NCBI GenBank assembly: GCA_944391625.1
Contig: CALXUG010000017.1
Location: 1-51,903, forward strand
Direction of reading: 5' to 3'
DNA length: 51,903 nt
Source of the DNA: an uncultured Clostridia bacterium
GTDB lineage: Bacteria; Bacillota; Peptococcia; Peptococcales; Peptococcaceae
Part shown: positions 4,623 to 49,459 of the stretch, one piece after another
Numbering within the stretch: the first letter of the stretch is position 1
How the letters are laid out: every line of letters starts with the position of its first letter
Translations under genes and position numbers: made by a program
Notes under the pieces: model-generated
Seen by the model: the letters and a program-made list of their open reading frames with translations, nothing else
Databases searched by the model: none
What the model was told of the DNA's origin: nothing

Positions 4623-4628
4623 AGAGTT

Positions 4629-4698
4629 AGTTATACGACTGACGGAAGTGGAATCAACCACATGAAGTATAATGTCTGTTTGCCGACCGTCTGGGCAC
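4629..4698 (+). promoter_or_regulatory. ZTP (pfl) riboswitch aptamer
   Basis: P1 is TTATAC (4631-4636) paired with GTATAA (4667-4672). It encloses the conserved GACTGACGG and a GTGG...CCAC hairpin. The 3' domain carries GCCGACCGTCTGGGCA, the hallmark CCGCCUGGGC element with a C-to-U change. That change is matched in the pseudoknot partner: GACGG (4641-4645) with CCGTC (4687-4691). ZTP riboswitches sense ZTP/ZMP, which accumulate when 10-formyl-THF is short. The gene downstream encodes the enzyme that consumes ZMP. Confidence 0.88.
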
Positions 4699-4725
4699 TA
4701 TGTGTCCGGACGTGTCGGTTTTTTT
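4683..4725 (+). terminator. riboswitch-controlled intrinsic terminator
   Basis: CCGAC-CGTCTGGGCAC pairs with GTGTCCGGACG-T-GTCGG (about 16 bp, one bulge), followed by seven Us. The 5' arm contains the aptamer's CCGTCTGGGC, so ligand binding and termination exclude each other. This is the ON-switch logic of ZTP riboswitches. Confidence 0.88.
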
Positions 4726-10686: not shown

Positions 10687-10700
10687 ATTTTGTTTGCGAG

Positions 10701-10950
10701 GCTGTATTGTCGGGAGACCGTTTGTTGCCTGCCCTCCTTCAGTGGACATCTGCTTGTCAGTCTGCCTCACTTTGGACTGCGTCCAGTTCGGTTAGACAGA
10801 CTGCACATCTGTCCTCTTCAATGTCGACAACGGCAACAAAACATCTCCCTAGGTTGCGCAACATAAAGATAACCAACCACACAATCTTTCGCGTGAAACA
10901 ATACAAAAAAACAGAGACCCTCGTGAGAGAGTCTCTGTCAATTTAACGGT
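10701..10950 (+). repeat. dispersed intergenic repeat, copy A
   Basis: About 250 bp downstream of the surface-protein gene at 10977. It starts GCTGTATTGTCGGGAGAC, followed by TTGTTGCCTGCCCTCCTTCA, then a GTCGACAACGGCAACAAAAC segment and the surface-gene terminator. Inverted copy B lies at 35469-35845 and partial direct copy C at 41488-41627. ORFs read through it are not conserved as protein. It looks like a non-coding element carried with the 3' flanks of surface genes. Confidence 0.7.
10904..10938 (-). terminator. terminator of the 10977 surface gene
   Basis: The ACAGAGAC/GTCTCTGT stem continues into CTC/GAG, then a U-run on the minus strand. It is identical to the terminator at 35469-35502. 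Confidence 0.88.
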
Positions 10951-13783: not shown

Positions 13784-16168
13784 TTACAGGTTAAACAGGA
13801 TGTCAGCGGTAGCGCCGTCCTGATCATAAGTTGGGATAACTTTAATTCCGAATGCTTCGGCTACGAAACGTACAGGAACCATTGTGCGGCTGCCATTGAT
13901 GAATGGAGCAACGTCCATAGTTTTTTCTTCATCGTTTACAGTGTAAGTAGCGGAACCAATAGTCATAACAACTTTCACGCCGTTCAGTTCAGCAGTTACA
14001 GCCTGAGTAGCTTCGTCGTAAGCAACTTCAGCACCGAAAGCTTCTGCCAATGCACGGAATGGTACATAGGTACGGTCATTCTGGATGATTGGAGCAGAAT
14101 CGATGGTAGCTTTTGCATCGTTTACGATGATTTCGTTAGAACCGATGGACATAACTACTACATCACCTACAGAGTCATTGCCTACAGCAAAGATCTGAGT
14201 ACCGGTGTAGTAACGTACAACATTATCGTCCTGTGTTACTTTAGCAACTGCCTGAATGGTAACATTACCAACAGTGTTGGAGGTTACATTCATTACAAAG
14301 CTACCTTCTGTTGTTAAATTATTGTCAGAACCATCTGTAGATACAGATACTTTTGCATCAGTTGGTTTGTCCAGAACTACATAACTGATTTTTGCATCTT
14401 TACCACGGTTCAGAGCAACTTTATTGCCTTCACCATCTACAACAGATACAGTTACTTTATTGTTTGCATTTACAGATAATGTTTTGGTGTCAAAAGCTAA
14501 TTCGGTAGCTTCATCAGCTACAGTTAAAGTAGCATTTGCAGTTAAGTTATAACGATCGTCTACAGCGATTACAGTAATGGTTTGACCGATGTATTTGTCA
14601 TCATCTTTTACTTCTACAGTACCGGCACTGTGTGTTACAACACTGCCAGCTTCATCTTCGTGTGCTGGTGTAGCAGTACATTTGTCATCATCAGCGTAGA
14701 AACGTTCTACAGCATAACCGGTTGCAGCTAAATCAATTTTATTGGTGCAGTCTTTTGTTACGCCGTTAGCGTCAACCCATTCCAAACTATCAATTGCTAC
14801 ATAAGAACCGATTTCTACAGCGTCAGCTTCATATGTCAGGTTCAATTTTACAGGAGTTTCAAATTCCTGTACTTCAAAGGATACTGTTACATAGTTACCA
14901 TTATCTAAAACAACTTTAACTTCATAGGTACCTTCTGCAAGGTCGTCGCTGTCATCAATCCACAGGTTTGCTCTGTATTCGTTGTCAGCTGCAGCTACTA
15001 ATTTTAAATCTTCATTTTCTAAATCGGAAGCAGATGGCTGAGACACGATTGCTACATATGGACGGCAGTTTTCGATATCATCGTTAGGGTTAGCACCATC
15101 ACTATGGAAAGCAGCATAAGCGCCGTTATCATCAGCAATATTGGTTGTTACAGCATTGCCGTTAGCATCGGTGAAAGTAAACTGAATTTTGTTGCTGTCA
15201 GCGTCAAACTGAGTAGTAACATCTACTGGAGCATCTGGAGATTTTGCCAGAGCAATGTTGTAAGCTCCGGTAGCTCCAACCTGAACAATAATAGTGGCTT
15301 CGTAAGAACCACATTTTACATATACTTTATAGTCACCATCACGAACGCCGGTTACTTTAAATTTAACCTGACCTAATGTGTCAGTGGTAGCTTTTTCTTT
15401 GCTCAGTTCGATGTTGGAACTGTTAGTGTCAAAGGTTACTGTTTCGCCTTTGACAGCTCTGCCTTGTTCATCAACGATTTTTACAGTTACTTCTTTTTCA
15501 GCTACGTTGTTGGCACTAACAGTAACGGTTTTGAACTCGGCACCATCTACGTAATAATCAGGATTTACTACACCATCAATTTTTTGTTCATCATCATCAG
15601 CAGCAGCTAAAGCTTCTCCGCCTACGGTAACTTTAGCAGCATAATCGCTGGAACTGGAAGAAGAAGTGATTTCAAAAGAGTTCTGATTAGAAACGGTAGA
15701 CAGTTTGTATTCAACATCGCTGAAACGTTCTGCTAATGTTTTATCAGCATATTTTTTGTCGCTTGGGTTGTCAAAAGCAGCTTTTACTGTATAAGTACCG
15801 CTGTTGGCAAACTGGAAGTCGTAATCAACACCGGATTTTGGATTGTTGATAGTAAATACGCCGTTGCCATCTGGTTCAATAGTATCTTCCATTGTTACAC
15901 TGGTGGTAGCAACGCTAGCGCCACTTTTGATAAACCATACGTAAACAGCGCCGGTAGTTTGGTCAACAGTTGCACCGGATTTGTTTACAAAATCAAACTG
16001 AACGGTTAAGTCACTGCCTGCTTTTTCGCTAGCATCTGCTTCTTTTGTAAAAACGGAGCTTTCCTGGTAGTCAATACCAGCTGGAACATCAGCGAAAGCA
16101 GCAACTGGCATTAAAGTCATCATGAAGCACAGTAATGTCAGAATCGCAAATAATTTTTTGTTTTTCAA
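13784..16168 (-). CDS. S-layer-like surface protein, putative silent cassette 1
   Basis: 794 residues from a TTG start (16168-16166) with CCTAGGAGGG about 7 nt upstream. The signal peptide starts MKNKKLFAILTLLCFMMT and ends at AAFA. The first 78 nt are identical to those of the genes at 33109 and 45428. The middle is variable and includes an Ig-like module (GRAVKGETVTFDTNSSN...TLGQVKFKV). The C-terminal stalk domain of about 120 residues is nearly identical to its paralogues and ends ADILFNL. Codon use is strongly biased, as in highly expressed genes. A 107-nt leader with a 26-bp palindrome lies upstream, but beyond the palindrome I see no promoter comparable with the one at 32757. I therefore propose it is off in this arrangement and activated by inversion with the 33-kb site. 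Confidence 0.82.
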   Translation of the reverse strand: MKNKKLFAILTLLCFMMTLMPVAAFADVPAGIDYQESSVFTKEADASEKAGSDLTVQFDFVNKSGATVDQTTGAVYVWFIKSGASVATTSVTMEDTIEPDGNGVFTINNPKSGVDYDFQFANSGTYTVKAAFDNPSDKKYADKTLAERFSDVEYKLSTVSNQNSFEITSSSSSSDYAAKVTVGGEALAAADDDEQKIDGVVNPDYYVDGAEFKTVTVSANNVAEKEVTVKIVDEQGRAVKGETVTFDTNSSNIELSKEKATTDTLGQVKFKVTGVRDGDYKVYVKCGSYEATIIVQVGATGAYNIALAKSPDAPVDVTTQFDADSNKIQFTFTDANGNAVTTNIADDNGAYAAFHSDGANPNDDIENCRPYVAIVSQPSASDLENEDLKLVAAADNEYRANLWIDDSDDLAEGTYEVKVVLDNGNYVTVSFEVQEFETPVKLNLTYEADAVEIGSYVAIDSLEWVDANGVTKDCTNKIDLAATGYAVERFYADDDKCTATPAHEDEAGSVVTHSAGTVEVKDDDKYIGQTITVIAVDDRYNLTANATLTVADEATELAFDTKTLSVNANNKVTVSVVDGEGNKVALNRGKDAKISYVVLDKPTDAKVSVSTDGSDNNLTTEGSFVMNVTSNTVGNVTIQAVAKVTQDDNVVRYYTGTQIFAVGNDSVGDVVVMSIGSNEIIVNDAKATIDSAPIIQNDRTYVPFRALAEAFGAEVAYDEATQAVTAELNGVKVVMTIGSATYTVNDEEKTMDVAPFINGSRTMVPVRFVAEAFGIKVIPTYDQDGATADILFNL

Positions 16169-16275: not shown

Positions 16276-16301
16276 TATTCAAAAGTTATGAGTTTTGAAT
16301 A
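16276..16301. repeat. 26-bp palindromic site 1 (putative inversion crossover site)
   Basis: Outer arms TATTCAAAA are perfect and the central dinucleotide is AT; three inner positions do not match the mirror arm. It marks the upstream limit of homology with the other surface-gene leaders, apart from about 11 bp (CATRTGTACGT) shared with the 33-kb site. Confidence 0.65.
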
Positions 16302-19212: not shown

Positions 19213-21130
19213 CAGGCATGCCTCCTTCCATACCGGTTGGCGGAGTGCCGCCCATCTGTTCCGGTGTTTTGTTGGTGCTGCCGGTTTGGCTTTCGCTGTC
19301 GGCGGTACGGTTAATCTGGCTTTCGATGAGTACAATATCGCCTTCCTCTAAGCCGGAAGTGACTTCATAACTGGAACCGTCGGTAAAGCCCAGTGTTACT
19401 TCCTGCTGCAGTGAGGTGCCGTCTTCTTGTTTTACGTTTACATAATTTTTATCGCCCTGGGTGGTGATGGCCCGTTTTGGAATGATCAATACATCATCTA
19501 CCCGTTCGCTGACCAAATCAACGGTGCAGGACATGCCTTCATAAATATCCTCCAGACCTTCGCCTTCCACTGTAACGGTAACCGTGTAGTTTACCGTTGG
19601 AGCGCCGGCAGCCATTGGAGAAACACTGATGGCATTTACCTTGCCTTCAAAGGTTTCTTCGGATGTATCAAAGGTAACCAGAGCCTGCTGATCCAGAGAA
19701 ACGTTGCTGATGTCATCCTGGTCAATGGATAGTACAACCGAGATGCTGTCATTCTGCGCAATGGTGATAACGTCCTGGGTTAAGTCAATCTGTTCGCCTG
19801 CTTCAAAGGCAATATTGGTAACCAGGCCATCGCAGGGAGATAAAATGACGTTATCTTGCAAACAGCTGTTTAATTCCTGCACATAGGCATATAGGTTTTC
19901 TGCTGTCAGTTGGGTACTCAATACTTCCTGCTGCAGTTTATTGACGGTGCTTTCATAGGTCAAATCGGCTGTTTCGGCAGAAACGGTAGTTTTGTTTTTT
20001 TCACTTTCTGCCATTTCTTTGTTGCTTTCGTAGAGTAATTTGTAATTGTCATAGGTTAGTTGGGTATTTTCCAAATCTAACTGCAGCTGGCTGACTTTGC
20101 GCTGCAATTCGCTGTAGGTCATGCCGCTGTACCAATCCTGATAATCCTCGTTATATTCATCATAAGCTTCCTGCGCTTCTTCCAGACAGGTTTGGGCATC
20201 TTCGATACGATTTTCCAGCGTATCATATTCATCTACAACCGACTGATATTTGTTGATGATTTCGATGGCTTCGTCGAATTTATCAACTGCTGTGTTGTAG
20301 GCATCACCGTATTTTTCGGCATCTTCGCTGTCAGCATAGGCATCTTTTTCTGCTTCGGCCTTTTCCAGCGCCTCGGTCAGTGATTCCAGCTGATTTTTAT
20401 AATTGTTGTAGGATGCTTTATAATCGGCGTTATCTTCGTTGTAATCGTCATAAAATTCTTCCAGCGCTTTTAGTGCTTCGTCGTAGTAATCTACCAGGCT
20501 TTTCATATTGTTTCTGGTGGCAGTACGCAGATTATACAACTCCAACAGTTCGCTGTATTTTTCGTAGTCCTCCTGTCCTTCTTGTAAATTCTTTTCGTAT
20601 TCCGTCATTTTGTTTTGCATTTCTGTTAATGTGTTTTCGTAAACACCGGATGCCACCGAACCATCGCTGAGGCTTTCGGTTCGGGTTTGTTCCGCAGTGG
20701 CAGTTCCCAGTGTCAGATTAATGGAGGCTTCATCTGCTTTTAACTGGGCTTCCTGATATGCATTGTTTAAGGTGTTCATGGCCTTGTTCAGCGAAGTCTG
20801 GTCCAGAATAAACAGCGGATCACCTTCTGAAACATGTTCGCCTGCCCGCACCAGCACTTCTTCTACTTTTACTTCCAAATCCAGATGGGTGTCGTCATCC
20901 AGTGTCACATCTAAATCCAATCCGGTGGTTTGTGTTGTGACCGATGCAGTGCCCTCCTCCGACAGGCTGGCAATAATATCGCCTCTTGTCACAGCCTGTT
21001 CTCTGGCCTGAACAGTGTCGGCGTCTGCATTATGTTTCTGCCAGAAAAAAATTCCTGCTGCAATCAAAGCTGCAATTGCAATCACCATAATGGCAATCGT
21101 CGCTTTCTTGCGTGTAATGGTTTTTAACAA
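19190..21130 (-). CDS. periplasmic adaptor (membrane fusion protein) with very long coiled coil
   Basis: 646 residues from a TTG (21130-21128) that follows AAAAGGAG by about 10 nt; longer in-frame starts lack a ribosome binding site. One N-terminal membrane helix (about 10-29) is followed by a biotinyl-lipoyl half motif. A Glu/Tyr-rich coiled coil (about 95-380) follows. It is much longer than in MacA and split into several hairpin segments (YDEYNEDYQDWY and similar). The second lipoyl half (CDGLVTNIAFEAGEQ), beta-barrel and membrane-proximal domains (VLIIPKRAI) come after. The C-terminal tail is Gly/Met-rich. It links the permease to the cell exterior, or to an outer-membrane TolC if one exists; a TolC-family gene lies at 39323. 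First gene of the export operon. Confidence 0.88.
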   Translation of the reverse strand: MLKTITRKKATIAIMVIAIAALIAAGIFFWQKHNADADTVQAREQAVTRGDIIASLSEEGTASVTTQTTGLDLDVTLDDDTHLDLEVKVEEVLVRAGEHVSEGDPLFILDQTSLNKAMNTLNNAYQEAQLKADEASINLTLGTATAEQTRTESLSDGSVASGVYENTLTEMQNKMTEYEKNLQEGQEDYEKYSELLELYNLRTATRNNMKSLVDYYDEALKALEEFYDDYNEDNADYKASYNNYKNQLESLTEALEKAEAEKDAYADSEDAEKYGDAYNTAVDKFDEAIEIINKYQSVVDEYDTLENRIEDAQTCLEEAQEAYDEYNEDYQDWYSGMTYSELQRKVSQLQLDLENTQLTYDNYKLLYESNKEMAESEKNKTTVSAETADLTYESTVNKLQQEVLSTQLTAENLYAYVQELNSCLQDNVILSPCDGLVTNIAFEAGEQIDLTQDVITIAQNDSISVVLSIDQDDISNVSLDQQALVTFDTSEETFEGKVNAISVSPMAAGAPTVNYTVTVTVEGEGLEDIYEGMSCTVDLVSERVDDVLIIPKRAITTQGDKNYVNVKQEDGTSLQQEVTLGFTDGSSYEVTSGLEEGDIVLIESQINRTADSESQTGSTNKTPEQMGGTPPTGMEGGMPDGASRNS

Positions 21131-28559: not shown

Positions 28560-28629
28560 CGCTGATATATGCAGCAGAGAAAATTGAGGCTGACTTGACG
28601 AATAATAGGCTTTGTGATAGCATATAATT

Positions 28630-28746
28630 AACAAAAGAGAGCAACCTTGATGTGTTGGTAGCACATCAGCAAACGGTTTACTCTCCCAGATGGGGTTGAT
28701 ACCCTGCCTATCTAGTTGAGTGGATAAGGCGGGGTATCTTTTTTAT
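28630..28746 (+). ncRNA. antitoxin RNA 1
   Basis: Promoter TTGACG (28595-28600), 17 nt, TGA-TAGCAT (28618-28623, extended -10); an overlapping TATAAT lies at 28623-28628. The 5' stem is GAGAGCAACC with GGTTTACTCTC (28675-28685), enclosing TGATGTG/CACATCA. The terminator GATACCC...GGGTATC plus U6 ends near 28746. GGTTTACTCTC is complementary, with one extra base, to the start of the toxin mRNA (GAGAGTAACC). Confidence 0.75.
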
Positions 28747-28764
28747 AAAAGAATAATTACCTTA

Positions 28765-28845
28765 CTACTTTTTACGCAGCAAGGCGATAACAGCGACAAG
28801 TAAAGTCAATGTGGCAATGACTGCCATGTAGAATTCATATGTCAT
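28765..28845 (-). CDS. type I toxin-like hydrophobic peptide 1 (holin-like toxin family)
   Basis: 26 residues: MTYEFYMAVIATLTL, a hydrophobic helix, then ending LLRKK. It is one membrane span with a basic C-terminus, as in TxpA/Fst/'putative holin-like toxin' peptides (family assignment inferred). The promoter is TTTACA-18-TAAAAT just upstream of 28900. The ribosome binding site GGGAGG lies in a CCTCCC-TTGA-AGGGAGG hairpin, so translation would be blocked unless the leader refolds. The mRNA 5' end (GAGAGTAACC; GGTAGGCGG) is complementary to patches in the convergent antitoxin RNA. The gene is too short for ordinary gene callers. Confidence 0.75.
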   Translation of the reverse strand: MTYEFYMAVIATLTLLVAVIALLRKK

Positions 28846-29013
28846 AGTGTTATCACCTCCCTTCAAGGGAGGAAAACCGCCTACCGTTCTGGTTACTCTC
28901 TGGATTGTATTTTAACATAGAAGCATATGTTCTGTAAATGGAATTTACTATTTTTTACAATTTGGTTGCTATGACTAACTTGACGGATAACAGGCTTTGT
29001 GATAGCATATAAC

Positions 29014-29126
29014 TAATAAAAGAGAGCAACCTTGATGCATTGGCGTGCATCAGTAAACGGTTTACTCTCCCAGATTGAGTCGATGACCCGTCTATCTGTT
29101 GAGGGATGAGGCGGGTTGTCTTTTTT
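29014..29126 (+). ncRNA. antitoxin RNA 2
   Basis: Promoter TTGACG (28980-28985), 17 nt, TAGCAT (29003-29008). The inner stem is TGATGCA/TGCATCA, a paired change from copy 1 (TGATGTG/CACATCA). Terminator 29082-29126 (ACCCGTCT/AGGCGGGT, then U6). Confidence 0.75.
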
Positions 29127-29146
29127 GTAAAAGAATAATTACCTTA

Positions 29147-29227
29147 CTACTTTTTACGCAGCAAGGCGATAACAGCGACAAGTAAAGTCAGTGTGGCAAT
29201 GGCTGCCATGTAGAATTCATATGTCAT
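29147..29227 (-). CDS. type I toxin-like hydrophobic peptide 2
   Basis: 26 residues, identical to peptide 1 except Ala instead of Val at position 9. It has the same SD-sequestering hairpin and the same upstream promoter layout on the minus strand. It is convergent with antitoxin RNA 2, with the stop 21 bp from that RNA's terminator. Confidence 0.75.
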   Translation of the reverse strand: MTYEFYMAAIATLTLLVAVIALLRKK

Positions 29228-29395
29228 AGTGTTATCACCTCCCTTCAAGGGAGGAAAACCGCCTACCGTTATGGTTACTCTCTGGATTGTATTTTAACAT
29301 GGAATCGTATGTTCTGTAAATAGAATTTACTATTTTTTACAATTTGGTTGCTATGGCCGACTTGACGGATAATAGGCTTTGTGATAGCATATAAC

Positions 29396-29511
29396 TAACA
29401 AAAGAGAGCAACCTTGATGCATTGGCGTGCATCAGTAAACGGTTTACTCTCCCAAATGTAGACAGACTACTCGCCTATCTTCTCAGGGATAAAGGCGGGT
29501 AGTCATTTTTT
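29396..29511 (+). ncRNA. antitoxin RNA 3
   Basis: Promoter TTGACG (29362-29367), 17 nt, TAGCAT (29385-29390). Inner stem TGATGCA/TGCATCA. Terminator GACTACTCGCCT/AGGCGGGTAGTC (29465-29511), a different stem from its neighbours but with full pairing kept. Confidence 0.75.
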
Positions 29512-29530
29512 ATGACGTTATATAACCTTG

Positions 29531-29608
29531 TTACTTGCGTAGCAAGGCGATAACAGCGACAAGTAAAGTCAATGTGGCAATGGTTGCCATGTAGAATTCA
29601 TATGTCAT
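29531..29608 (-). CDS. type I toxin-like hydrophobic peptide 3
   Basis: 25 residues: one terminal Lys shorter than the others (ends LLRK), with Thr at position 9. The SD hairpin loop differs (CCTCCC-CTAA-GGGAGG), but the stem is intact. The spacing between SD and ATG is 3 nt shorter than in the other copies. Confidence 0.75.
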   Translation of the reverse strand: MTYEFYMATIATLTLLVAVIALLRK

Positions 29609-29773
29609 AGTTACCACCTCCCTTAGGGGAGGAAAACCGCCTACCGTTATGGTTACTCTCTGGATTGTATTTTAACATGGAATCGTATGTTCTGTAAATA
29701 AAATTTACTATTTTTTACAATTTGCTTACTAAGGCTGACTTGACGAATAATAGGCTTTGTGATAGCATATAAC

Positions 29774-29887
29774 TAACAAAAGAGAGCAACCTTGATGTGT
29801 TGGTAGCACATCAGCAAACGGTTTACTCTCCCAAACTGAATAAGCTAACCGCCTATTCGGCGAAGGAATGGGGCGGTTAGTTTTTTT
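29774..29887 (+). ncRNA. antitoxin RNA 4
   Basis: Promoter TTGACG (29740-29745), 17 nt, TAGCAT (29763-29768). Inner stem TGATGTG/CACATCA. Terminator CTAACCGCC/GGGCGGTTAG plus U7 (29845-29887). Confidence 0.75.
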
Positions 29888-29902
29888 ATTACAAAAACCT
29901 TA

Positions 29903-29983
29903 CTACTTTTTACGCAGCAAGGCGATAACAGCGACAAGTAAAGTCAGTGTGGCAATAATGGCCATGTAGAATTCATATGTCAT
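29903..29983 (-). CDS. type I toxin-like hydrophobic peptide 4
   Basis: 26 residues, Ile at position 9. Identical at nucleotide level to peptide 5 through the coding region and leader. SD hairpin CCTCCC-CTAA-GGGAGG. Confidence 0.75.
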   Translation of the reverse strand: MTYEFYMAIIATLTLLVAVIALLRKK

Positions 29984-30150
29984 AGTGTTATCACCTCCCT
30001 TAGGGGAGGAAAACCGCCTACCGTTCTGGTTACTCTCTGGATTGTATTTTAACATGCAAGCGTATGTTCTGTAAATAGAATTGACTGTTTTTTACAATTT
30101 GCTTACTAAGGCTGACTTGACGAATAATAGGCTTTGTGATAGCATATAAC

Positions 30151-30264
30151 TAACAAAAGAGAGCAACCTTGATGTGTTGGTAGCACATCAGCAAACGGTT
30201 TACTCTCCCAAACTGAATAAGCTAACCGCCTATTCGGCGAAGGAATGGGGCGGTTAGTTTTTTT
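30151..30264 (+). ncRNA. antitoxin RNA 5
   Basis: Same sequence as antitoxin RNA 4, with promoter TTGACG at 30117-30122 and TAGCAT at 30140-30145. Terminator 30222-30264. Confidence 0.75.
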
Positions 30265-30279
30265 ATTACAAAAACCTTA

Positions 30280-30360
30280 CTACTTTTTACGCAGCAAGGC
30301 GATAACAGCGACAAGTAAAGTCAGTGTGGCAATAATGGCCATGTAGAATTCATATGTCAT
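30280..30360 (-). CDS. type I toxin-like hydrophobic peptide 5
   Basis: 26 residues, identical to peptide 4. The two units differ only in their far-upstream toxin promoter region. Confidence 0.75.
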   Translation of the reverse strand: MTYEFYMAIIATLTLLVAVIALLRKK

Positions 30361-30527
30361 AGTGTTATCACCTCCCTTAGGGGAGGAAAACCGCCTACCG
30401 TTCTGGTTACTCTCTGGATTGTATTTTAACATGCAATCGTATGTTCTGTAAATAGAATTTACTATTTTTTACAATTTGGTTGCTATGACTAACTTGACGG
30501 ATAACAGGCTTTGTGATAGCATATAAC

Positions 30528-30643
30528 TAACAAAAGAGAGCAACCTTGATACATTGCAGTGTATCAGCAAACGGTTTCGCTCCCTTGTAATGTTGGCGAT
30601 AATCCGCCTCGATTTTTGGGGATCAGGGCGGGTTATCTTTTTT
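30528..30643 (+). ncRNA. antitoxin RNA 6 (divergent)
   Basis: Promoter TTGACG (30494-30499), 17 nt, TAGCAT (30517-30522). Inner stem TGATACA/TGTATCA, a third compensatory version. The 3' side of the outer stem is GGTTTCGCTC instead of GGTTTACTCTC. Terminator GATAATCCGCC/GGCGGGTTATC plus U-run (30598-30643). Confidence 0.75.
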
Positions 30644-30666
30644 AGTTAAAAGATTTTGTTACCTTA

Positions 30667-30747
30667 CTACTTTTTACGCAGCAAGGTGATAACAGCGACT
30701 AATAAAGTCAATGTGGCAATGATTGCCATGTAGAATTCATATGTCAT
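30667..30747 (-). CDS. type I toxin-like hydrophobic peptide 6 (divergent)
   Basis: 26 residues with Ile at position 9 and Thr instead of Ala near position 21 (VITLLRKK end). The mRNA 5' end reads GAGAGCAACC rather than GAGAGTAACC. The SD hairpin is CCTCCC-TTTGAG-GGGAGG. The matching divergence of RNA 6 suggests unit-specific pairing. Confidence 0.75.
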   Translation of the reverse strand: MTYEFYMAIIATLTLLVAVITLLRKK

Positions 30748-30924
30748 AGTGTTATCACCTCCCCTCAAAGGGAGGAAAACCGCCTACCGTTATGGTTGCT
30801 CTCTGAACCATATTTTAACATACAATCATATGTTCTGTAAATAGACTTAAGCAGCAGAATAAACAGAATAGAGCAACTCTTATTGATTACATGATGATTC
30901 GCTTGCCAAGACAGGCGAATTTTT

Positions 30925-32756: not shown

Positions 32757-32785
32757 TTGTCAAAGCAAACAAATCTCTGTATAAT
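32757..32785 (+). promoter_or_regulatory. promoter of the expressed surface-protein locus
   Basis: TTGTCA (32757-32762), 17-nt spacer, TATAAT (32780-32785). It predicts a long 5' UTR (about 315 nt) with a TTTAAAACC/GGGTTTTAAA hairpin (near 32806-32828), a 20-codon ORF, the 26-bp palindrome and the conserved leader. The two paralogous silent genes lack an equivalent. Confidence 0.78.
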
Positions 32786-32881
32786 ACAGAAGTTGACGAA
32801 ATTTGTTTTAAAACCTTTGGGTTTTAAATATAAGTAGTGGGTTATTAAAAAATTAAAATATTTAGCTTGAAAGGGGTGGTT

Positions 32882-32944
32882 ATGCCACATCATTTTGAGA
32901 AGTCGTCTTGGACGAAATGGTTCGCTTCAAGAGTGGAGGCTTAA
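32882..32944 (+). CDS. 20-codon leader ORF in the surface-gene 5' UTR
   Basis: ATG at 32882 follows GAAAGGGGTGG, a good ribosome binding site. The 20 residues start MPHHFEKSSW and end at TAA 32942-32944. The peptide is basic/aromatic and has no known match. It lies between the promoter and the palindromic site, so it would stay with the promoter whichever surface gene is expressed. It could be a regulatory leader peptide or only protect the mRNA. Confidence 0.5.
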   Translation: MPHHFEKSSWTKWFASRVEA

Positions 32945-32977
32945 AACAAATAGTAGAGAATATCGTACACATGTACG

Positions 32978-33003
32978 TATTCAAAACTCATGAGTTTTGA
33001 ATA
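32978..33003. repeat. 26-bp perfect palindrome, site 2 (putative inversion crossover site)
   Basis: Arms TATTCAAAACTC and GAGTTTTGAATA around a central AT. All 26 bp are self-complementary. Length, 12-bp arms and a 2-bp centre match the design of Hin/Gin-type crossover sites, and the arm resembles the hix TCAAAAACC element. It lies between the promoter and the leader of the 33109 gene. Related sites are at 16276-16301 and 45534-45559. Confidence 0.75.
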
Positions 33004-33108
33004 TCCATCAGTGGCGGACATAGCTGAAAAAGGCGCATTTATCGGGAGCTTCCCGATTGTCTGGCGAGACACAAAACTGACCGAGAAATATCCTAGGAGG
33101 GAAATAAA
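33004..33108 (+). promoter_or_regulatory. conserved structured 5' leader of surface gene, copy 2
   Basis: 105 nt with hairpins TCGGGA-GCT-TCCCGA and TTGTCT-GGCG-AGACA, then CCTAGGAGGG before the TTG. It differs from the 45-kb copy at only three positions. A 40-codon frame begins at the ATG in the palindrome and ends TGA overlapping the TTG start (TTGA), but it lacks a ribosome binding site and is broken in the 16-kb copy. Confidence 0.68.
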
Positions 33109-35430
33109 TTGAAAAACAAAAAATTATTTGCGATTCTGACATTACTGTGCTTCATGATGACTTTAATGCCAGTTGCTGCTTTCGCTGCTGACTATCAGAC
33201 TAGCTATGTTTACACAGTAGATAGCGAAGCTTCTGTAGCAGAAAAAGAAGAAGTTGGTTTGGTATTTGATTTAGATGGCACTGCTACAACCGTTTATGTA
33301 TGGTTTGTAGAAGATGGTTATAATGTTCCTACTACAGCCACTGAAAAATACACTGATTCTGATGTAACTGGTACACATCAGAGTGCTATTACCGAAACAG
33401 TTTTAGATGGTGTGTTTGCAATTAGCCCTGTAGCTAGTGACCTGGAATATGATTTCATGTTCTCTCGTAGTGGTAACTACACCGTATATGCTTCTTTAGA
33501 AGATCCTAATGCTGTGACTGGTACAACTGCTGAAAAAATTGCTAATGTTGAGAAGAAATTAGGCACCGCAAAGGATCAGAAAAAAATTGAAGTTTACGGT
33601 GATGATATTTCTACCAGTAAATATGCTGCTAAAGTTGTAAAAGGTGACGGTTTAACAACTATTGAATATTACAAAACCAATAGTACAATTGGTGGCACTG
33701 TTTCTGTAGAAGCCAATAATGTAGCAGAAGAAGAAATTACTTTGAAATTTGTTGATGGTTACACAGCTGCTACCGGTAATGATGCAGAAAAAATTGGTGA
33801 TGCTGTAAAAGGTGCTACAGTTAAATTAGATACTAACAGTTCTAGCATTCAGTTAAACAAAACAGAAGCTACTACAAATGCTTCCGGTCAGGTTAGCTTT
33901 AAAGTATCTGGCTCCACTGAAGGCAACTACAAAGTATATGTAACACTGGGTTCTTACACCACAACTATCAATGTTAAAGTTGGTGGTACAGGCGCTGCTT
34001 ATATCAATGTAGTAAAAGAACCAACTGATCCAGTTGATATCGATATGACTCGTTTCGATGATTTCATTCGTCTTTCTTTCACTGACATCAATGGTAATGC
34101 TTTAACAAATGCTGAAGCTGCTGCTGATGGTGCTGTAGAAGCTTATAAAGCTACTGACTATGTATCTGTTATTTCTCAGCCTGCAAAAGCAAATCTGAAA
34201 AATAAAGATCTGAAATTAGTAGCTCGTAAAAATGCTGCTGGCGTTGAACAACAGTATGAAGCTACAATCGAAAGTAAAAAAGCTCTGACAGTAGAAGGTA
34301 CTTATGAATTCAAAGTAGTTCTGGATAATGGTAACTACAAAACTGTTAAATTGGAAGTAAAAGAATTCACAACACCAGTAAAAATCAACTTGGTATATGC
34401 CGCTCCATCTGTTGAATTAGGTGGTCAGTTAAATGTTGATAAATTAGAATATGTAGATGCTAATGGCGTTGTTAAATCTGCTAAAGGTAAAGTTGATTTA
34501 GCTGCTACTGGTAAAGCTATCCGTGATTTTGATACAACCACTGGTAAAATCACTGTTTCCAGCGATGATAAATATATTGGTTCCGAAATCACTATTACTG
34601 CTGTAGATGATAGATATAATTTAGTTGCTACTGCTAGTTTAACTGTTGCTGATGAAGCAAAAGAACTGAAATTTGATACAAAAACAGCTGAAGTAAATGT
34701 TAACAATACTATCGGTGTTCAGGTTGTTGACTCTCAGGGTAACAGAGTTGCATTAGGTCGTGGTTATGATGCTAATGGCGAATCTGTTGTTGTAGATAGC
34801 ATTAAATATGTAGTTTTGGATAAACCAGCTGATGCTAAAGTATCTGTAAATACTGCAAGTGCTAACAACAACATCCTGTCTGCTGGTTCCTTTAAAATGA
34901 ATCTGACTTCTAATAAAGTTGGTAATGTAACTGTTCAGGCTATTGCTAAAGTAACTTATAATGAAGTTGATGAAAATGATAAACAGAATACAGTTGTAAG
35001 ATACTACACAGGTACCCAGATCTTTGCTGTAGGCAATGGCTCTGTAGGTGATGTAGTAGTTATGTCCATCGGTTCCAGCGAAATCATCGTAAATGATGCA
35101 AAAGCTACTATCGATGCTGCTCCAATGATTCAGAATGACCGTACCTATGTACCATTCCGTGCATTGGCTGAAGCTTTCGGCGCTGAAGTTGCTTACGATG
35201 AAGCTACTCAGGCTGTAACTGCTGAACTGAACGGTGTAAAAGTTGTTATGACTATTGGTTCCGCTACCTACACTGTAAACGACGCTGAAAAAACTATGGA
35301 CGTTGCTCCATTCATCAATGGCAGCCGTACTATGGTTCCAGTAAGATTTGCAGCTGAAGCTTTCGGCATCAAAGTTATCCCAACTTATGATGAAAACGGT
35401 GCTACCGCTGACATCCTGTTCAACCTGTAA
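33109..35430 (+). CDS. S-layer-like surface protein, expressed cassette
   Basis: 773 residues from a TTG with CCTAGGAGGG upstream. The signal peptide MKNKKLFAILTLLCFMMT... is cut after AAFA. The variable middle contains an Ig-like module (GATVKLDTNSSSIQLNK, ASGQVSFKVSGS) and further beta-rich repeats. The last 120 residues are the stalk domain shared with the 13784 and 42453 proteins (TYVPFRALAEAFGAEVAYD; end ADILFNL). Codon choice is very narrow (GCT, GAA, AAA, GTA), as for a highly abundant protein. It alone has a strong promoter. An S-layer or major surface coat role is inferred from size, signal peptide, codon bias and leader. No SLH or LPXTG anchor is present, so the stalk domain may mediate attachment. 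Confidence 0.83.
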   Translation: MKNKKLFAILTLLCFMMTLMPVAAFAADYQTSYVYTVDSEASVAEKEEVGLVFDLDGTATTVYVWFVEDGYNVPTTATEKYTDSDVTGTHQSAITETVLDGVFAISPVASDLEYDFMFSRSGNYTVYASLEDPNAVTGTTAEKIANVEKKLGTAKDQKKIEVYGDDISTSKYAAKVVKGDGLTTIEYYKTNSTIGGTVSVEANNVAEEEITLKFVDGYTAATGNDAEKIGDAVKGATVKLDTNSSSIQLNKTEATTNASGQVSFKVSGSTEGNYKVYVTLGSYTTTINVKVGGTGAAYINVVKEPTDPVDIDMTRFDDFIRLSFTDINGNALTNAEAAADGAVEAYKATDYVSVISQPAKANLKNKDLKLVARKNAAGVEQQYEATIESKKALTVEGTYEFKVVLDNGNYKTVKLEVKEFTTPVKINLVYAAPSVELGGQLNVDKLEYVDANGVVKSAKGKVDLAATGKAIRDFDTTTGKITVSSDDKYIGSEITITAVDDRYNLVATASLTVADEAKELKFDTKTAEVNVNNTIGVQVVDSQGNRVALGRGYDANGESVVVDSIKYVVLDKPADAKVSVNTASANNNILSAGSFKMNLTSNKVGNVTVQAIAKVTYNEVDENDKQNTVVRYYTGTQIFAVGNGSVGDVVVMSIGSSEIIVNDAKATIDAAPMIQNDRTYVPFRALAEAFGAEVAYDEATQAVTAELNGVKVVMTIGSATYTVNDAEKTMDVAPFINGSRTMVPVRFAAEAFGIKVIPTYDENGATADILFNL

Positions 35431-35502: not shown

Positions 35503-35845
35503 GTATTGTTTCACGCGAAAGATTGTGTGGTCGGCTGTCTTATCTTTGCCTATCCTTCAGTGCTTCGGACACCAACTTGTTTGTTTCTTTCGCTATGGAC
35601 TGCGTCCAGCTCAATGAAAACAAACTGCGTTGCTGACCGCCGCAATTCAGAATTTTGGCAAAGGATAGGCCAGCCTCATACGCAAGTTAGGGAGATGTTT
35701 TGTTGCCGTTGTCGACATTGAAGCGAACAATTTGACCAGCTGTTCCAACCGTGACGGACGTAGTCCGACTAAGGGGAACAGCGGTAAAACTGTCCGCTGA
35801 AGGAGGGCAGGCAACAAACAGTCTCCCGACAATGCAGTATTGCAC
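35503..35845 (-). repeat. dispersed intergenic repeat, copy B (inverted, mosaic)
   Basis: It shares both ends with copy A in inverse orientation: the segment after the terminator (TGTTTCACGCGAAAGATTG) and the TGAAGGAGGGCAGGCAACAA / GTCTCCCGACAAT segment near 35797-35836. The middle differs. It follows the expressed surface gene. No conserved protein is encoded. Confidence 0.65.
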
Positions 35846-35991
35846 TACAATAGCAATAAAATTCCCCATCCCAATGGTTCCAGTTCCAATTCACAGCTGC
35901 CTCCCACACCCCCATCCTGCACCAACCAAAATGATACCACTGCCCAATTTCTTGTAGCAAAAAGAAATAATATCCAATTTGCAAGAATTTC

Positions 35992-41365: not shown

Positions 41366-41455
41366 ATGCAATATCTGGTAGTTGAAAATATTATTGCTGT
41401 TGCACCTATAGTATCTGATGATTGCATTTTGCTCAGCGCAGAACAAAATCATTGA
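41366..41455 (+). CDS. possible 29-residue peptide gene
   Basis: ATG with an excellent AAAGGAG 10 nt upstream. The peptide begins MQYLVVENIIAVAP and contains one Asp-Asp-Cys. It is followed at once by repeat copy C. There is no convincing plus-strand promoter and no family I recognise. It may be a leader-type or signalling peptide, or chance. Confidence 0.35.
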   Translation: MQYLVVENIIAVAPIVSDDCILLSAEQNH

Positions 41456-41487
41456 GATGGGGGATTTTATTGATGTTGTCGTGTAAT

Positions 41488-41627
41488 GCTGTATTGTCGG
41501 GAGACTGTTTGTTGCCTGCCCTCCTTCAGTGGACATCTGCTTGTCAGTCTGCCTCACTTTGGACTGCGTCCAGTTCGGCCAGACAGACTGCGCACCTGTT
41601 CATATTGAAGCAGAATTTTGGCAATGA
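41488..41627 (+). repeat. dispersed intergenic repeat, copy C (partial, direct)
   Basis: Matches copy A from GCTGTATTGTCGGGAGAC through GGACTGCGTCCAGTTCGG and the GACAGACTGC segment, then ends near a GCAGAATTTTGGCAA segment shared with copy B. It lacks the terminator end. Confidence 0.7.
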
Positions 41628-41699: not shown

Positions 41700-42308
41700 T
41701 TATGGCCGATACCCTTTCTGTTTAGTGTATTTATACCAGCTGCTTCGTGTACATTTCATAATCCGGCAGGCTTCTTCGGCAGTGATTTCTTTTTTGCTCC
41801 ATCGTTCTGCTGTTTCGGCAAATAACTGCCAGTCCCATTCTAAACAGGGACGGCCCATCTTTTTACCGCTGCGCACAGCTTCTTCAATGCCCTGCCGTTG
41901 GCTTTCCCGCATTCGCTTGCGCTGTATTTCATTCAAATATTGCAGCAGAAATAAAAAGTATTCCTGCGCCGATATATCTGTATGGCTGTCTTTCTGCATA
42001 TTGCTGCTGTCCAGATAATCAGGATGCTCTATCACCACAATTCTGGCGCCTACCTGTTGGGTAATATACTGCCACTCCTGGGCCATGGTGATAAAATTGG
42101 CGCCCAGACTATCCAGCCTGTCAATATACAGTTCATCTCCGGAACGTAATAACTGCCGCATAAAGCCATAGCATTCCTGCGTGTTTTCTATATTCTTTTC
42201 ATCAGCAAAAATGAAACGGCTTTCTGCTACATGCTGATAAATCTTCTGTAAAAGCTGTCTTTCTTCATCAGTTTGCTCTTTGCTATATCGTCTGTATCCA
42301 AATTTCAT
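41700..42308 (-). CDS. small serine recombinase (resolvase/invertase family), divergent
   Basis: 202 residues from the ATG at 42308, with AAGGA upstream; an earlier in-frame ATG has no site. The resolvase N-terminal domain has FGYRRYSKEQ with catalytic Ser9 and Arg6. The IDRLDSLGAN loop keeps Arg64, but the second loop Arg usual in DRxxR is missing. The long E helix ends KRMRESQRQGIEEAVRSGKKMGRP. The C-terminal helix-turn-helix (ITAEEACRIMKCTRSSWYKYTKQ, in part) is Hin-like. Size fits Hin/Gin/resolvase enzymes. It lies inside the segment bounded by sites 2 and 3, beside a silent surface gene, so it is a candidate for the enzyme that switches them. Its divergence could also mean reduced activity. 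Confidence 0.72.
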   Translation of the reverse strand: MKFGYRRYSKEQTDEERQLLQKIYQHVAESRFIFADEKNIENTQECYGFMRQLLRSGDELYIDRLDSLGANFITMAQEWQYITQQVGARIVVIEHPDYLDSSNMQKDSHTDISAQEYFLFLLQYLNEIQRKRMRESQRQGIEEAVRSGKKMGRPCLEWDWQLFAETAERWSKKEITAEEACRIMKCTRSSWYKYTKQKGYRP

Positions 42309-42388
42309 CTCTTTCATATCCTTCATGCTAATGGTTATTTCTATAATCTTTCATTTCTATGTTTTACTTAGTAACGCTGTATATGTAA

Positions 42389-42452: not shown

Positions 42453-45428
42453 TTACAGGTTGAACAGGATGTCAGCGGTAGCACCGTTTTCATCATAAGT
42501 TGGGATAACTTTGATGCCGAAAGCTTCAGCTACGAAACGAACTGGAACCATAGTACGGCTGCCATTGATGAATGGAGCAACGTCCATAGTTTTTTCAGCG
42601 TCATTTACAGTGTAGGTAGCGGAACCAATAGTCATAACAACTTTTACGCCGTTCAGTTCAGCAGTTACAGCCTGAGTAGCTTCATCGTAAGCAACTTCAG
42701 CGCCGAAAGCTTCAGCCAATGCACGGAATGGTACGTAAGTACGATCATTCTGAACCATTGGAGCAGCATCGATAGTAGCTTTTGCATCGTTTACGATGAT
42801 TTCGTTAGAACCGATGGACATAACTACTACATCACCTACAGAACCATTGCCTACAGCAAAGATCTGAGTACCTGTGTAGTATTTAACCTGGTTAACAGCT
42901 TCTGTTGTACCGGTTGTTTCAGTTGTGTATCTAGCTTTCAGGATAGCCTGAACAGTTACATTACCAACTTTATCGGAGGTCAGAGCCAGACGGCCTTCAC
43001 CTTTGCTGATTAAATCAGATTTGATTGTAGCATCATAGGTAGAAACTTTAGCACCTTCTGGTTTGTCCAGAACGATGTATTTGATTTCTTCGATGGATAC
43101 TGCATTGTTGGAACCCAAAGCAACTTTGTTATCGCTGGAATCTACTACATTCCAAACGATTTTGTTGTTTACATTTACTTCAGCTGTTTTGTCAGCAAAT
43201 TTGATTGCAGAAGCGCCTTCAGCAACAGTCAGTTCTTTGGTGCTTACCAGGTTGTAACGGCTGGAAGCAGCTGTTACAGTGATTTTAGCGCCAACATATT
43301 TTTCATCGGATTTAACAGTGATGGTGTTGCCATCAACTTTTTCTACTGCATAACCGGTAGCTGCAAAGTCAGCATCGGTAGCTTTCTTTTCAACGCCGTT
43401 AGCATCAACGTAGTCTAAACCAGCAGTAATTTTACCACCCAGTTCAACAGTTGTTGTGTCATAACCAATTCTTAATTCTACTGGAGTACCGAATTTTTTA
43501 ACTTCCCATGTAGCGGTAGCAACAGCACCGTTGTCCAGAATTACTTTTACAGAGTAAGTACCTTCTGCATCAAAGGAAGGAGTTACTAAATCATAAGTTT
43601 CTTTGTTTACATTGTATTTCAGAGATAAATCAGAGCTTTCCATGGTGGAAGCAGATGGTTTTTCTGTCAATACGATATATTTACCAGTTGTTTTGTTAGC
43701 TTTGATACCGGACATACCTTTATCAGTAGGAGCTGCACCATTGGTAGCTTCTTTAACCAGGTTGCCGTTTACGTCAGTTACACGGAAACGGATTTTGGTA
43801 TCGTTGTCATACTGTGCTCTTGGAGCTTTTGGCTGATTTACAGTTTCAATAGCAGAAGCTGCGGTATTGCCGGAAACAACTTTCAGTACATACTGAATGC
43901 CGTCTACTTCCAGATAAATGTTGTATTTACCTTCACGGGAAGCAGATACTTTAAACTGTAATTTACCCTGAGACACTAATTTAGCAGAATCTTTGTTTAC
44001 AGCAATGTTGCCACTGTCTGTAGAAATGCTAACAGTTGTGCCAGTTAATACTTTATCTTTGCTGTAGAAATATACATCAATGTTGTCTGTTTCTACATTG
44101 TTAGGTTGGATAGTCAGAGTACCCAGTTCCTGACCTTTTGCAGCATCAGCAGCTTTTACAACACCTTCGGATGTAACACTGTAATTGTCACCACTGTCTT
44201 TGTTTACTTTAGCGGAGTAAGCTTCTTCCGGATCTACGGATACACCACTAACTGTAATTTTGTTAGCATTTGCTTTACCGCCAATATACTGCATATTGCT
44301 CAAAGCAGATGTAGCTTTATCTTCAATACCAGCATATACGGTGTATTTACCTGCGCTTGCAAAGTACACTTTGATTTCAGCGCCAGCCTGAACACCTGTA
44401 AATTTATAAGAGTTTCTATACTCGCTAGAGTCTTCTTTAGTTGCACCTGTTACTCCAGCAATCTGTAATGCGGAACTAACATTACCATCTTCATCTACAG
44501 CCCAAACATACATATTACCGCTCAAAGGCTGATTTGTTTCATTGCCGTGGGCATCAATTGCTCTGAATTTGAAAGTTGCAATATTTGCAACTCCTTGTTC
44601 ACCTGCTTTTTCAACAACTTTTACAGTTGTATCACCATCAACAGATTCAAAAGCAGATTTGTCAATGGCAACATCACCAGTGCCTGGAACGCCAGGAGTA
44701 GTACCATCTGTGGTGAAAATTGCTTTTACTTCGTCTAAGGTTTTAGCTGTATTAACAGCAGCAGCTTTTTCTGCATCGTCATTACCAACAAATACAGCAA
44801 AATCAGCAGGAGTAACTTTAGCATAAGCTGCTTTAAAAGCTCTTACATTAGCTGCAGTTTGTGTTTTTGCTACAGCATCATATGTTTTTTCAGCAGCAAA
44901 TAAGTTGCTTACTTTATCGAAATTCAGTGCATTAGCTGCAACAAAAGCAGCTTTTTCAGCGTCATCGCCTGTAAGCGGAGATTTATCTTGTGCTGCAACA
45001 AAAGCATCGAGAGTATCTGTGCTAACATTAGCTACCAAATCAGCCCAAGCGGTTTCTGTTGTAGCGACAGCTAATTTAGCATCAGCAGCATCTTTGTCAG
45101 CTTGGGTGATTTTGTAAACATTTGCACCATTAACGGTATCACCATCCTTACCAGTAGCATCAATATAAAGCTCATCTACAACGATAGAACCGTTAGGAAT
45201 ATTTTTGCCGGAAACAACAACACCACCAGTTAATGTGTACACATCACCAGCTTTATTAACTTTCCACAAATCACCTACAGTAACAAACTGTAAAGAGCCA
45301 TCTGGCATTACAGTTGGTTCTCCTAATTTAGCTTGACTTGTTGCATCAGCAGCGAAAGCAGCAACTGGCATTAAAGTCATCATGAAGCACAGTAATGTCA
45401 GAATCGCAAATAATTTTTTGTTTTTCAA
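42453..45428 (-). CDS. S-layer-like surface protein, putative silent cassette 2
   Basis: 991 residues from a TTG (45428-45426) with CCTAGGAGGG upstream. The signal peptide and first 78 nt equal those of the 33109 and 13784 genes. Specific to this copy is an Ala-rich helical region (about 110-250) with repeated DDAEKAA(F/A)V-type motifs. An Ig-like central part and the common C-terminal stalk domain follow (two VMSIGS/VMTIGS units, end ADILFNL). Codon bias is strong. Upstream of its palindromic site is the terminator of the neighbouring gene and then no recognisable promoter. I infer it is off now. Inversion between sites 2 and 3 would place it directly behind the 32757 promoter. Confidence 0.82.
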   Translation of the reverse strand: MKNKKLFAILTLLCFMMTLMPVAAFAADATSQAKLGEPTVMPDGSLQFVTVGDLWKVNKAGDVYTLTGGVVVSGKNIPNGSIVVDELYIDATGKDGDTVNGANVYKITQADKDAADAKLAVATTETAWADLVANVSTDTLDAFVAAQDKSPLTGDDAEKAAFVAANALNFDKVSNLFAAEKTYDAVAKTQTAANVRAFKAAYAKVTPADFAVFVGNDDAEKAAAVNTAKTLDEVKAIFTTDGTTPGVPGTGDVAIDKSAFESVDGDTTVKVVEKAGEQGVANIATFKFRAIDAHGNETNQPLSGNMYVWAVDEDGNVSSALQIAGVTGATKEDSSEYRNSYKFTGVQAGAEIKVYFASAGKYTVYAGIEDKATSALSNMQYIGGKANANKITVSGVSVDPEEAYSAKVNKDSGDNYSVTSEGVVKAADAAKGQELGTLTIQPNNVETDNIDVYFYSKDKVLTGTTVSISTDSGNIAVNKDSAKLVSQGKLQFKVSASREGKYNIYLEVDGIQYVLKVVSGNTAASAIETVNQPKAPRAQYDNDTKIRFRVTDVNGNLVKEATNGAAPTDKGMSGIKANKTTGKYIVLTEKPSASTMESSDLSLKYNVNKETYDLVTPSFDAEGTYSVKVILDNGAVATATWEVKKFGTPVELRIGYDTTTVELGGKITAGLDYVDANGVEKKATDADFAATGYAVEKVDGNTITVKSDEKYVGAKITVTAASSRYNLVSTKELTVAEGASAIKFADKTAEVNVNNKIVWNVVDSSDNKVALGSNNAVSIEEIKYIVLDKPEGAKVSTYDATIKSDLISKGEGRLALTSDKVGNVTVQAILKARYTTETTGTTEAVNQVKYYTGTQIFAVGNGSVGDVVVMSIGSNEIIVNDAKATIDAAPMVQNDRTYVPFRALAEAFGAEVAYDEATQAVTAELNGVKVVMTIGSATYTVNDAEKTMDVAPFINGSRTMVPVRFVAEAFGIKVIPTYDENGATADILFNL

Positions 45429-45533: not shown

Positions 45534-45559
45534 TATTCAAAACTCATGAGTTTTGGGTA
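45534..45559. repeat. 26-bp palindromic site 3 (putative inversion crossover site)
   Basis: Arms TATTCAAAACTC and GAGTTTTGGGTA around AT: two mismatches in the outer arm farthest from the gene. Homology with the 33-kb locus stops in this arm, as expected at a recombination boundary. Confidence 0.7.
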
Positions 45560-48856: not shown

Positions 48857-49459
48857 ATGATATATGGTTATATGCGTGTTAGTACAGTGGGTCAGGTAAA
48901 GGGCAACAGTCTGGAAGAACAGGAACGGATTTTGCGCCAGAATGGTGCGGTCATTCTTTATCAGGATGCTTTTACCGGTACCAAAACCTCTCGTCCTAAT
49001 TTTAACAAGCTGCTGGATATTTTGCAGGAGGGCGATACACTGGTAATTACCAAGCTGGATCGGTTTGCCCGCAATACAGTGGAGGGCATCAATGTGGTGC
49101 AGCATTTGCTGGAACGAGGGGTACGGGTAAATATTTTAAACATGGGTACAGTGGATAATACCCCAACAGGAAAATTGATTTTGACAGTCATGTTAGGATT
49201 TGCGGAATTTGAACGGGATATGATTATACAGCGTACTTCGGAAGGAAAGTCTATTGCCAAAACAAAGGTTGGTTACTGGGAAGGCAGACCGCCTAAGTAT
49301 GACATGGAAACTTTGATAGAAGCCGCTGAATTGCTGGAATATCACACCTACCGTCAGGTCAGTGAGATCACCGGCATCAGCAAAAGTACGCTGCAGAGGA
49401 TTAAGAAACGGTATGAAGAAGGAAAGTTTGATTGCTATGATGAAACAGAAATGATATAA
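48857..49459 (+). CDS. small serine recombinase (resolvase/invertase family)
   Basis: 200 residues. The resolvase domain has MIYGYMRVST with catalytic Ser9 and Arg7, KLDRFARN with both loop arginines (R69, R72), and EFERDMIIQRTSEGKSIAK, the dimerisation helix. All active-site positions are intact. The C-terminal helix-turn-helix (HTYRQVSEITGISKSTLQRI) has Hin-like size. AAAGGAGG precedes the ATG. Unlike the divergent copy at 41700, it looks fully active. It lies 3.3 kb outside palindromic site 3 and, acting in trans, is a second candidate for the enzyme that inverts the surface-gene sites. Resolution of plasmid multimers or transposon cointegrates is an alternative job. Confidence 0.88.
   Translation: MIYGYMRVSTVGQVKGNSLEEQERILRQNGAVILYQDAFTGTKTSRPNFNKLLDILQEGDTLVITKLDRFARNTVEGINVVQHLLERGVRVNILNMGTVDNTPTGKLILTVMLGFAEFERDMIIQRTSEGKSIAKTKVGYWEGRPPKYDMETLIEAAELLEYHTYRQVSEITGISKSTLQRIKKRYEEGKFDCYDETEMI

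Follow-up and report, generated by a model that had tools for sequence, protein, structure and literature searches.

Very few bacteria are known to switch their surface layer by exchanging entire genes. The slp switch of Lactobacillus acidophilus is said to use a hix-like 26-bp site. The Hin and Gin sites themselves measure 26 bp, with two 12-bp arms around a 2-bp core. In Bacteroides fragilis a single small serine recombinase, Mpi, acts on many dispersed surface-gene sites; this global invertase flips promoters, unlike the system considered here, in which whole genes would be swapped. As outlined in one account of slpA/slpB in L. acidophilus, two S-layer genes share the slp segment, one at a promoter-bearing expression site and the other silent and promoterless, and they change places by inversion (Boot et al. 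1996; PMC6015585). Strand exchange by Hin follows the serine recombinase mechanism (PMC3798978). The surface protein CwpV of C. difficile is phase-variable by DNA inversion with the promoter outside the inverted part (PMC2784873), and the BT1927 S-layer of B. thetaiotaomicron is also phase-variable by DNA inversion (PMC12548429). In these last two, what inverts is a short element of 195 bp or one invertible promoter, whereas the system proposed here would exchange complete genes behind a single promoter.

The window (the whole stretch of DNA analysed, 51,903 nucleotides) is contig C17 of a 2.97-Mb genome that is 96% complete. The named relatives in the genus, UBA7185 (G001), RGIG1748 (G004) and RGIG7294 (G005), are uncultured gut Peptococcaceae. 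A 26-bp palindrome at 32978–33003 is judged, with reasonable though far from full confidence, to be a crossover site among surface-protein cassettes, at which a Gin-type recombinase encoded at 48857 would place alternative genes behind one promoter. The candidate system is best read as similar to the slp switch of L. acidophilus, though with a larger number of cassettes. The 12.6-kb segment between 32978 and 45534 has the same layout as slp, whereas here there are at least six genomic sites (approximately 11 leader copies in G005) spread over several loci, and the proposed site is perfectly palindromic. The format of the site and a Gin-type recombinase with an intact active site recall Hin/hix and Gin of the Din family. 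Unlike those systems, this one combines a self-complementary AT core with many sites and segments of 12–17 kb, and the link between enzyme and site is a predicted one.

The palindrome (TATTCAAAACTCATGAGTTTTGAATA) is exact and lies where the earlier note had placed it. With a half-length of 13 it exceeds every other zero-loop perfect palindrome in the window; next comes the inner 18 bp (45538–45555) of another copy of the site. In 60 first-order simulations of the window the maximum half-length was 7–10 and, once, 11. Two copies with two mismatches to the 26-mer, at 16276–16301 and 45534–45559, stand against an expectation of zero. Both are inverted relative to 32978, so that all three show the Din-type layout of inverted sites of about 26 bp with 12-bp arms round a 2-bp core. 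The earlier note had held that these copies keep the gene-side arm while the other arm decays. This is true of 45534, where the gene-side arm is intact and the outer arm has changed to TACCCAAAACTC, but not of 16276, where it is the gene-side arm that has changed, beside the core (AACTTTTGAATA), and the outer arm that is intact. Compared with hixL, in what we take to be its sequence, the 26-mer agrees at about 15 of 26 positions, a modest likeness that serves as a lead only. An Rfam search returned no family at the palindrome, and phage and IMG/VR collections contained no match.

A genome-wide search for copies, proposed in the earlier note, yields six sites at up to three mismatches: 32978, 16276, 45534, C49:3954, C56:56 and C33:56. 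The note had said that wide occurrence at unrelated genes would count against a crossover site, and within this genome the palindrome is not found at such genes; all six copies stand at a surface-protein leader, with the same kind of leader downstream. Wherever the contig extends far enough, a start codon follows about 105 bp past the site and the reading frame opens with MKNKKLFAILTLLCFMMTLMPVAAFA; contigs C56 and C33 stop 55 bp into the leader, their genes unassembled. The cassette genes encode secreted proteins of 773–991 aa with a common signal peptide, and the surface proteins that were scanned carry C-terminal Cu_amine_oxidN1 domains and Ig-like Big_1 domains. At the expression locus, the 105-nt leader from site to start codon (33004–33108, plus strand), common to the other cassettes of the genome, precedes a gene for a 773-aa protein (33109–35430, plus strand) with signal peptide, Big_1 and two Cu_amine_oxidN1 stretches. 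The genes at 45534 (42453–45428, minus strand, 991 aa) and 16276 (13784–16168, minus strand, 794 aa) share its signal peptide and are presumed silent cassettes. The paralog family, the strong conserved promoter and the long structured leader suggest that these surface proteins form an S-layer. Near the 3′ side of surface cassettes there is an intergenic repeat (10695–10858, 35681–35879, 41447–41599 and, on C49 (L005), the left end), which might be where a mobile cassette ends on that side.

The site at 32978 lies 192 bp downstream of a near-consensus sigma-A-type promoter (TTGTCA-17-TATAAT; 32757–32785, plus strand) that matches the consensus at 11 of 12 positions and whose hexamers and spacing are identical in G001 and G004. 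Conservation in these two relatives (three species including that of the window) covers the promoter and the next ~190 nt and again ends at the site. The resulting 5′ untranslated segment (32786–32977, plus strand) closes with a 14-bp near-palindrome, CGTACACATGTACG, at 32964–32977. The promoter scan covered the three window sites, 32978, 45534 and 16276. Between 45400 and 45800, upstream of the 45534 site, it found no promoter-like match to the consensus, and at 16276 the sole match on the right strand overlaps the apparent terminator of the adjoining gene. The scan thus gives a layout of the slp type, with one promoter outside the segment and a promoterless gene facing the opposite way at 45534, and cassettes away from the expression locus are presumably silent.

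Conservation sets the palindrome apart from its surroundings. A 22-bp consensus scanned over 84,980 genomes matched 20 stretches, and genomes matched on more than one contig were confined to this Peptococcaceae group. Among 21 sites from five genomes, identity between genomes is 85% for the 26-bp site and 91% for its inner 18 bp, as against 33–40% for the 26 bp flanking it on either side. Hardly any variation is seen at the central AT or at arm positions CA and AACT. There are two types of outer arm, TATTCAAAACTC and xxCCCAAAACTC, and both occur in G000 and in G005. In G005, C77:2186 (L077) and C98:2352 (L143) are near-identical over ~230 bp upstream save for a patch of ~14 bp, which converts the outer arm from TATTCAAAACTT to GTCCCAAAACTT.

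At 32978 the palindrome would be transcribed, and the transcript predicted from 32793 to 33120 folds better than shuffled sequences (z = -4.0). The palindrome could in principle act as a terminator or, as a hairpin in the 5′ untranslated RNA, stabilise the message of the surface protein; the terminator-like scores of its counterparts in a sister genus also speak for such a role. However, not one compensatory stem change is seen in the 21 sites, as would be expected of a structured RNA, and at position 7 alone 10 of them have A/A or T/T; in the predicted fold, moreover, part of the outer arm pairs instead with untranslated sequence upstream. Since the arms do not compensate, the conserved object looks like paired protein half-sites in DNA and not like an RNA stem. 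The stem reading was rejected on this ground, and a role as hairpin or terminator is highly improbable.

Protein half-sites may also belong to an operator. In the sister genus (G008), related palindromes with a core almost identical to CAAAACTYATRAGTTTTG (CACAACTTATAAGTTATG in one copy) are found upstream of csrA-flagellin operons. They are paired, 113–138 bp apart, at two such loci, C35 (L100/L197; ~969–1107) and C193 (L196; ~20594–20757), and score as terminator-like; the pairs could be the bounds of short invertible segments, operators or terminators. A transcription factor for surface genes, S-layer-like in the genus and csrA-flagellin in the sister genus, might therefore bind the palindrome, as the perfect dyad, the restriction to one gene family and the same-core pairs upstream of the two csrA-fliC loci would suggest. 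Such an operator would nevertheless sit some 190 bp inside the transcript at 32978, would have been kept at 45534 where the scan found no promoter, and would often have asymmetric arms. It is quite unlikely to be the function of the palindrome.

All pairs of sites were aligned across 100 bp on the upstream side and as much as 75 bp on the downstream side. For 32978 and 45534 the leaders are 96% identical and the upstream sequences are unrelated (55%, background 58%). C56 and C33 have leaders that are 100% identical and upstream sequences at 57%; this pair may simply be an inverted repeat. The reverse pattern is seen in G005, where C77 and C98 share 91% of the upstream sequence and 65% of the leader (background 57%, maximum 67%). 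With the 32978 leader, that of C98 agrees at 84%; C98 is a mosaic of G005-family upstream sequence and a 32978-like leader, with the junction at the palindrome. Recombination has therefore taken place at or beside the palindrome. The joints would fit site-specific and homologous recombination alike and by themselves do not discriminate between the two.

RecA-dependent recombination or gene conversion between the repeats of ~210 bp formed by leader and signal peptide might shuffle the genes, in which case the palindrome would only be a regulatory element or the conserved boundary of the repeat on its left. The 32978 and 45534 cassettes are 99% identical over leader plus signal peptide, and the leaders of G005 are homogenised within that genome, which site-specific exchange alone does not explain. 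On the other hand, the 26-bp site is far better conserved between genomes than the adjoining leader, remains recognisable in G005 C77/C98 where the leader has reached background divergence, and is accompanied by a Gin-type recombinase conserved across the genus. Homologous shuffling is on balance an unlikely explanation, though together with the operator it is the chief rival of the crossover reading.

Gene order was compared using one genome per species. The 16.6–28.5 kb block in G001 and G004 and the 36–41 kb block in G004 have the same orientation as in the window, a point against the switch. At four gene junctions, WecG|dCMP deaminase, CuN45748|GPI, lrgA|lysA and 16608|yigZ, the neighbours are directly adjacent in G001 or G004, and other species have a site or cassette there; a surface gene of G004 has 87% DNA identity to a G005 gene at a different locus. 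By these comparisons, cassettes move between loci. The four breakpoints in gene order between species do not resolve to the palindrome, and in G005 ~230 bp upstream are also repeated. A 77-bp contig end common to C33 and C56 was dropped as proof of alternative joins because a genomic inverted repeat yields the same fork; overlaps of 141 bp between C28 and C33 of G004 and between C22 and C77 of G005 are hints only.

The likeliest enzyme for the proposed crossover would be the small serine recombinase encoded at 48857–49459 (plus strand; Pfam Resolvase, 119 bits). Its best PDB match is Gin (4m6f, E 1.7e-24), it matches the PHROG DNA invertase with 195 bits, and it retains the catalytic residues of an invertase-type serine recombinase (R7, S9 and LDRFAR). 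With 58.5 bits against the Mpi model NCBIfam PRK13413 (cut-off 272) it falls outside the Mpi family. Orthologs of 75–90% identity occur in six other genomes of the genus (seven of eight including that of the window) and adjoin argS wherever seen; two other genera have relatives at 74–76%. Of the six family genomes with a completeness of 90% or more, four have both sites and recombinase and two have neither. The less complete genomes break this co-occurrence in five of seven cases, G006 having sites and no detected ortholog and G002, G003, G007 and G011 the reverse, all of them incomplete. A half-site between argS and 48857 was discarded as an autoregulatory site, as it is not conserved in G004, G005 and G007.

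The earlier note had put forward a second recombinase, at 41700–42326 (minus strand) behind the 42453 cassette. Of the two, 48857 stands as the intact, genus-conserved, Gin-like candidate. The 41700 protein is degenerate and resolvase-like (Pfam Resolvase, 37 bits), and a 99% identical copy lies behind the C49 cassette. It was eliminated as the enzyme because both LDRxxR arginines have been replaced, and it is probably not a recombinase. Resolvase-like proteins that have lost catalytic residues form a family, made up of 41700–42326, L005:562–1188, L066:1304–1939, L067:63–374 and L149:71–382; the pieces on C48 and C62 look like one gene split by an insertion element, and C62 has a 77-bp end in common with C49.

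What sustains the idea of a crossover site, first raised in the earlier note, is that the palindrome is confined in this genome to one surface-gene family, is conserved as DNA, lies at a joint and occurs together with a conserved Gin-type recombinase; that the 48857 enzyme acts at these sites and that inversion occurs in living cells is presumed. In the proposed mechanism, the cassette would be a unit of site, leader of ~105 nt and gene with the common signal peptide, and outside it, upstream of the 32978 site, would lie the promoter and the initial ~190 nt of transcribed sequence. Recombination of 32978 with the inverted site at 45534 (12.6 kb away) or 16276 (16.7 kb away) would bring another cassette under the promoter, and sites elsewhere in the genome might be further partners. 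The self-complementary AT at the centre would leave the sites without built-in direction, and from the serine recombinase mechanism deletion between direct copies should thus also be possible. More tentatively, and with a fair degree of doubt, the system may be chromosome-wide, with one stably inherited Gin-type recombinase and directionless palindromic sites drawing on many dispersed cassettes (~6 here, ~11 in the relative), such that every switch would invert or delete a large stretch of the chromosome and, over time, the genus would have its gene order reshaped. A multi-cassette version would explain how an uncultured gut lineage varies its outermost protein against phages and host immunity, and, if true, would provide a naturally occurring serine recombinase whose palindromic site is defined. 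Among the papers searched, none dealt with this surface-gene switch.

Two other elements of the window were observed. Six tandem repeats of ~380 bp at 28587–30850 contain minus-strand ORFs that, in the copies inspected by eye, look like a hydrophobic peptide of ~24 aa, and the arrangement resembles a type I toxin-antitoxin array. A ZMP/ZTP riboswitch (Rfam RF01750, 54.7 bits) lies at 4625–4703.
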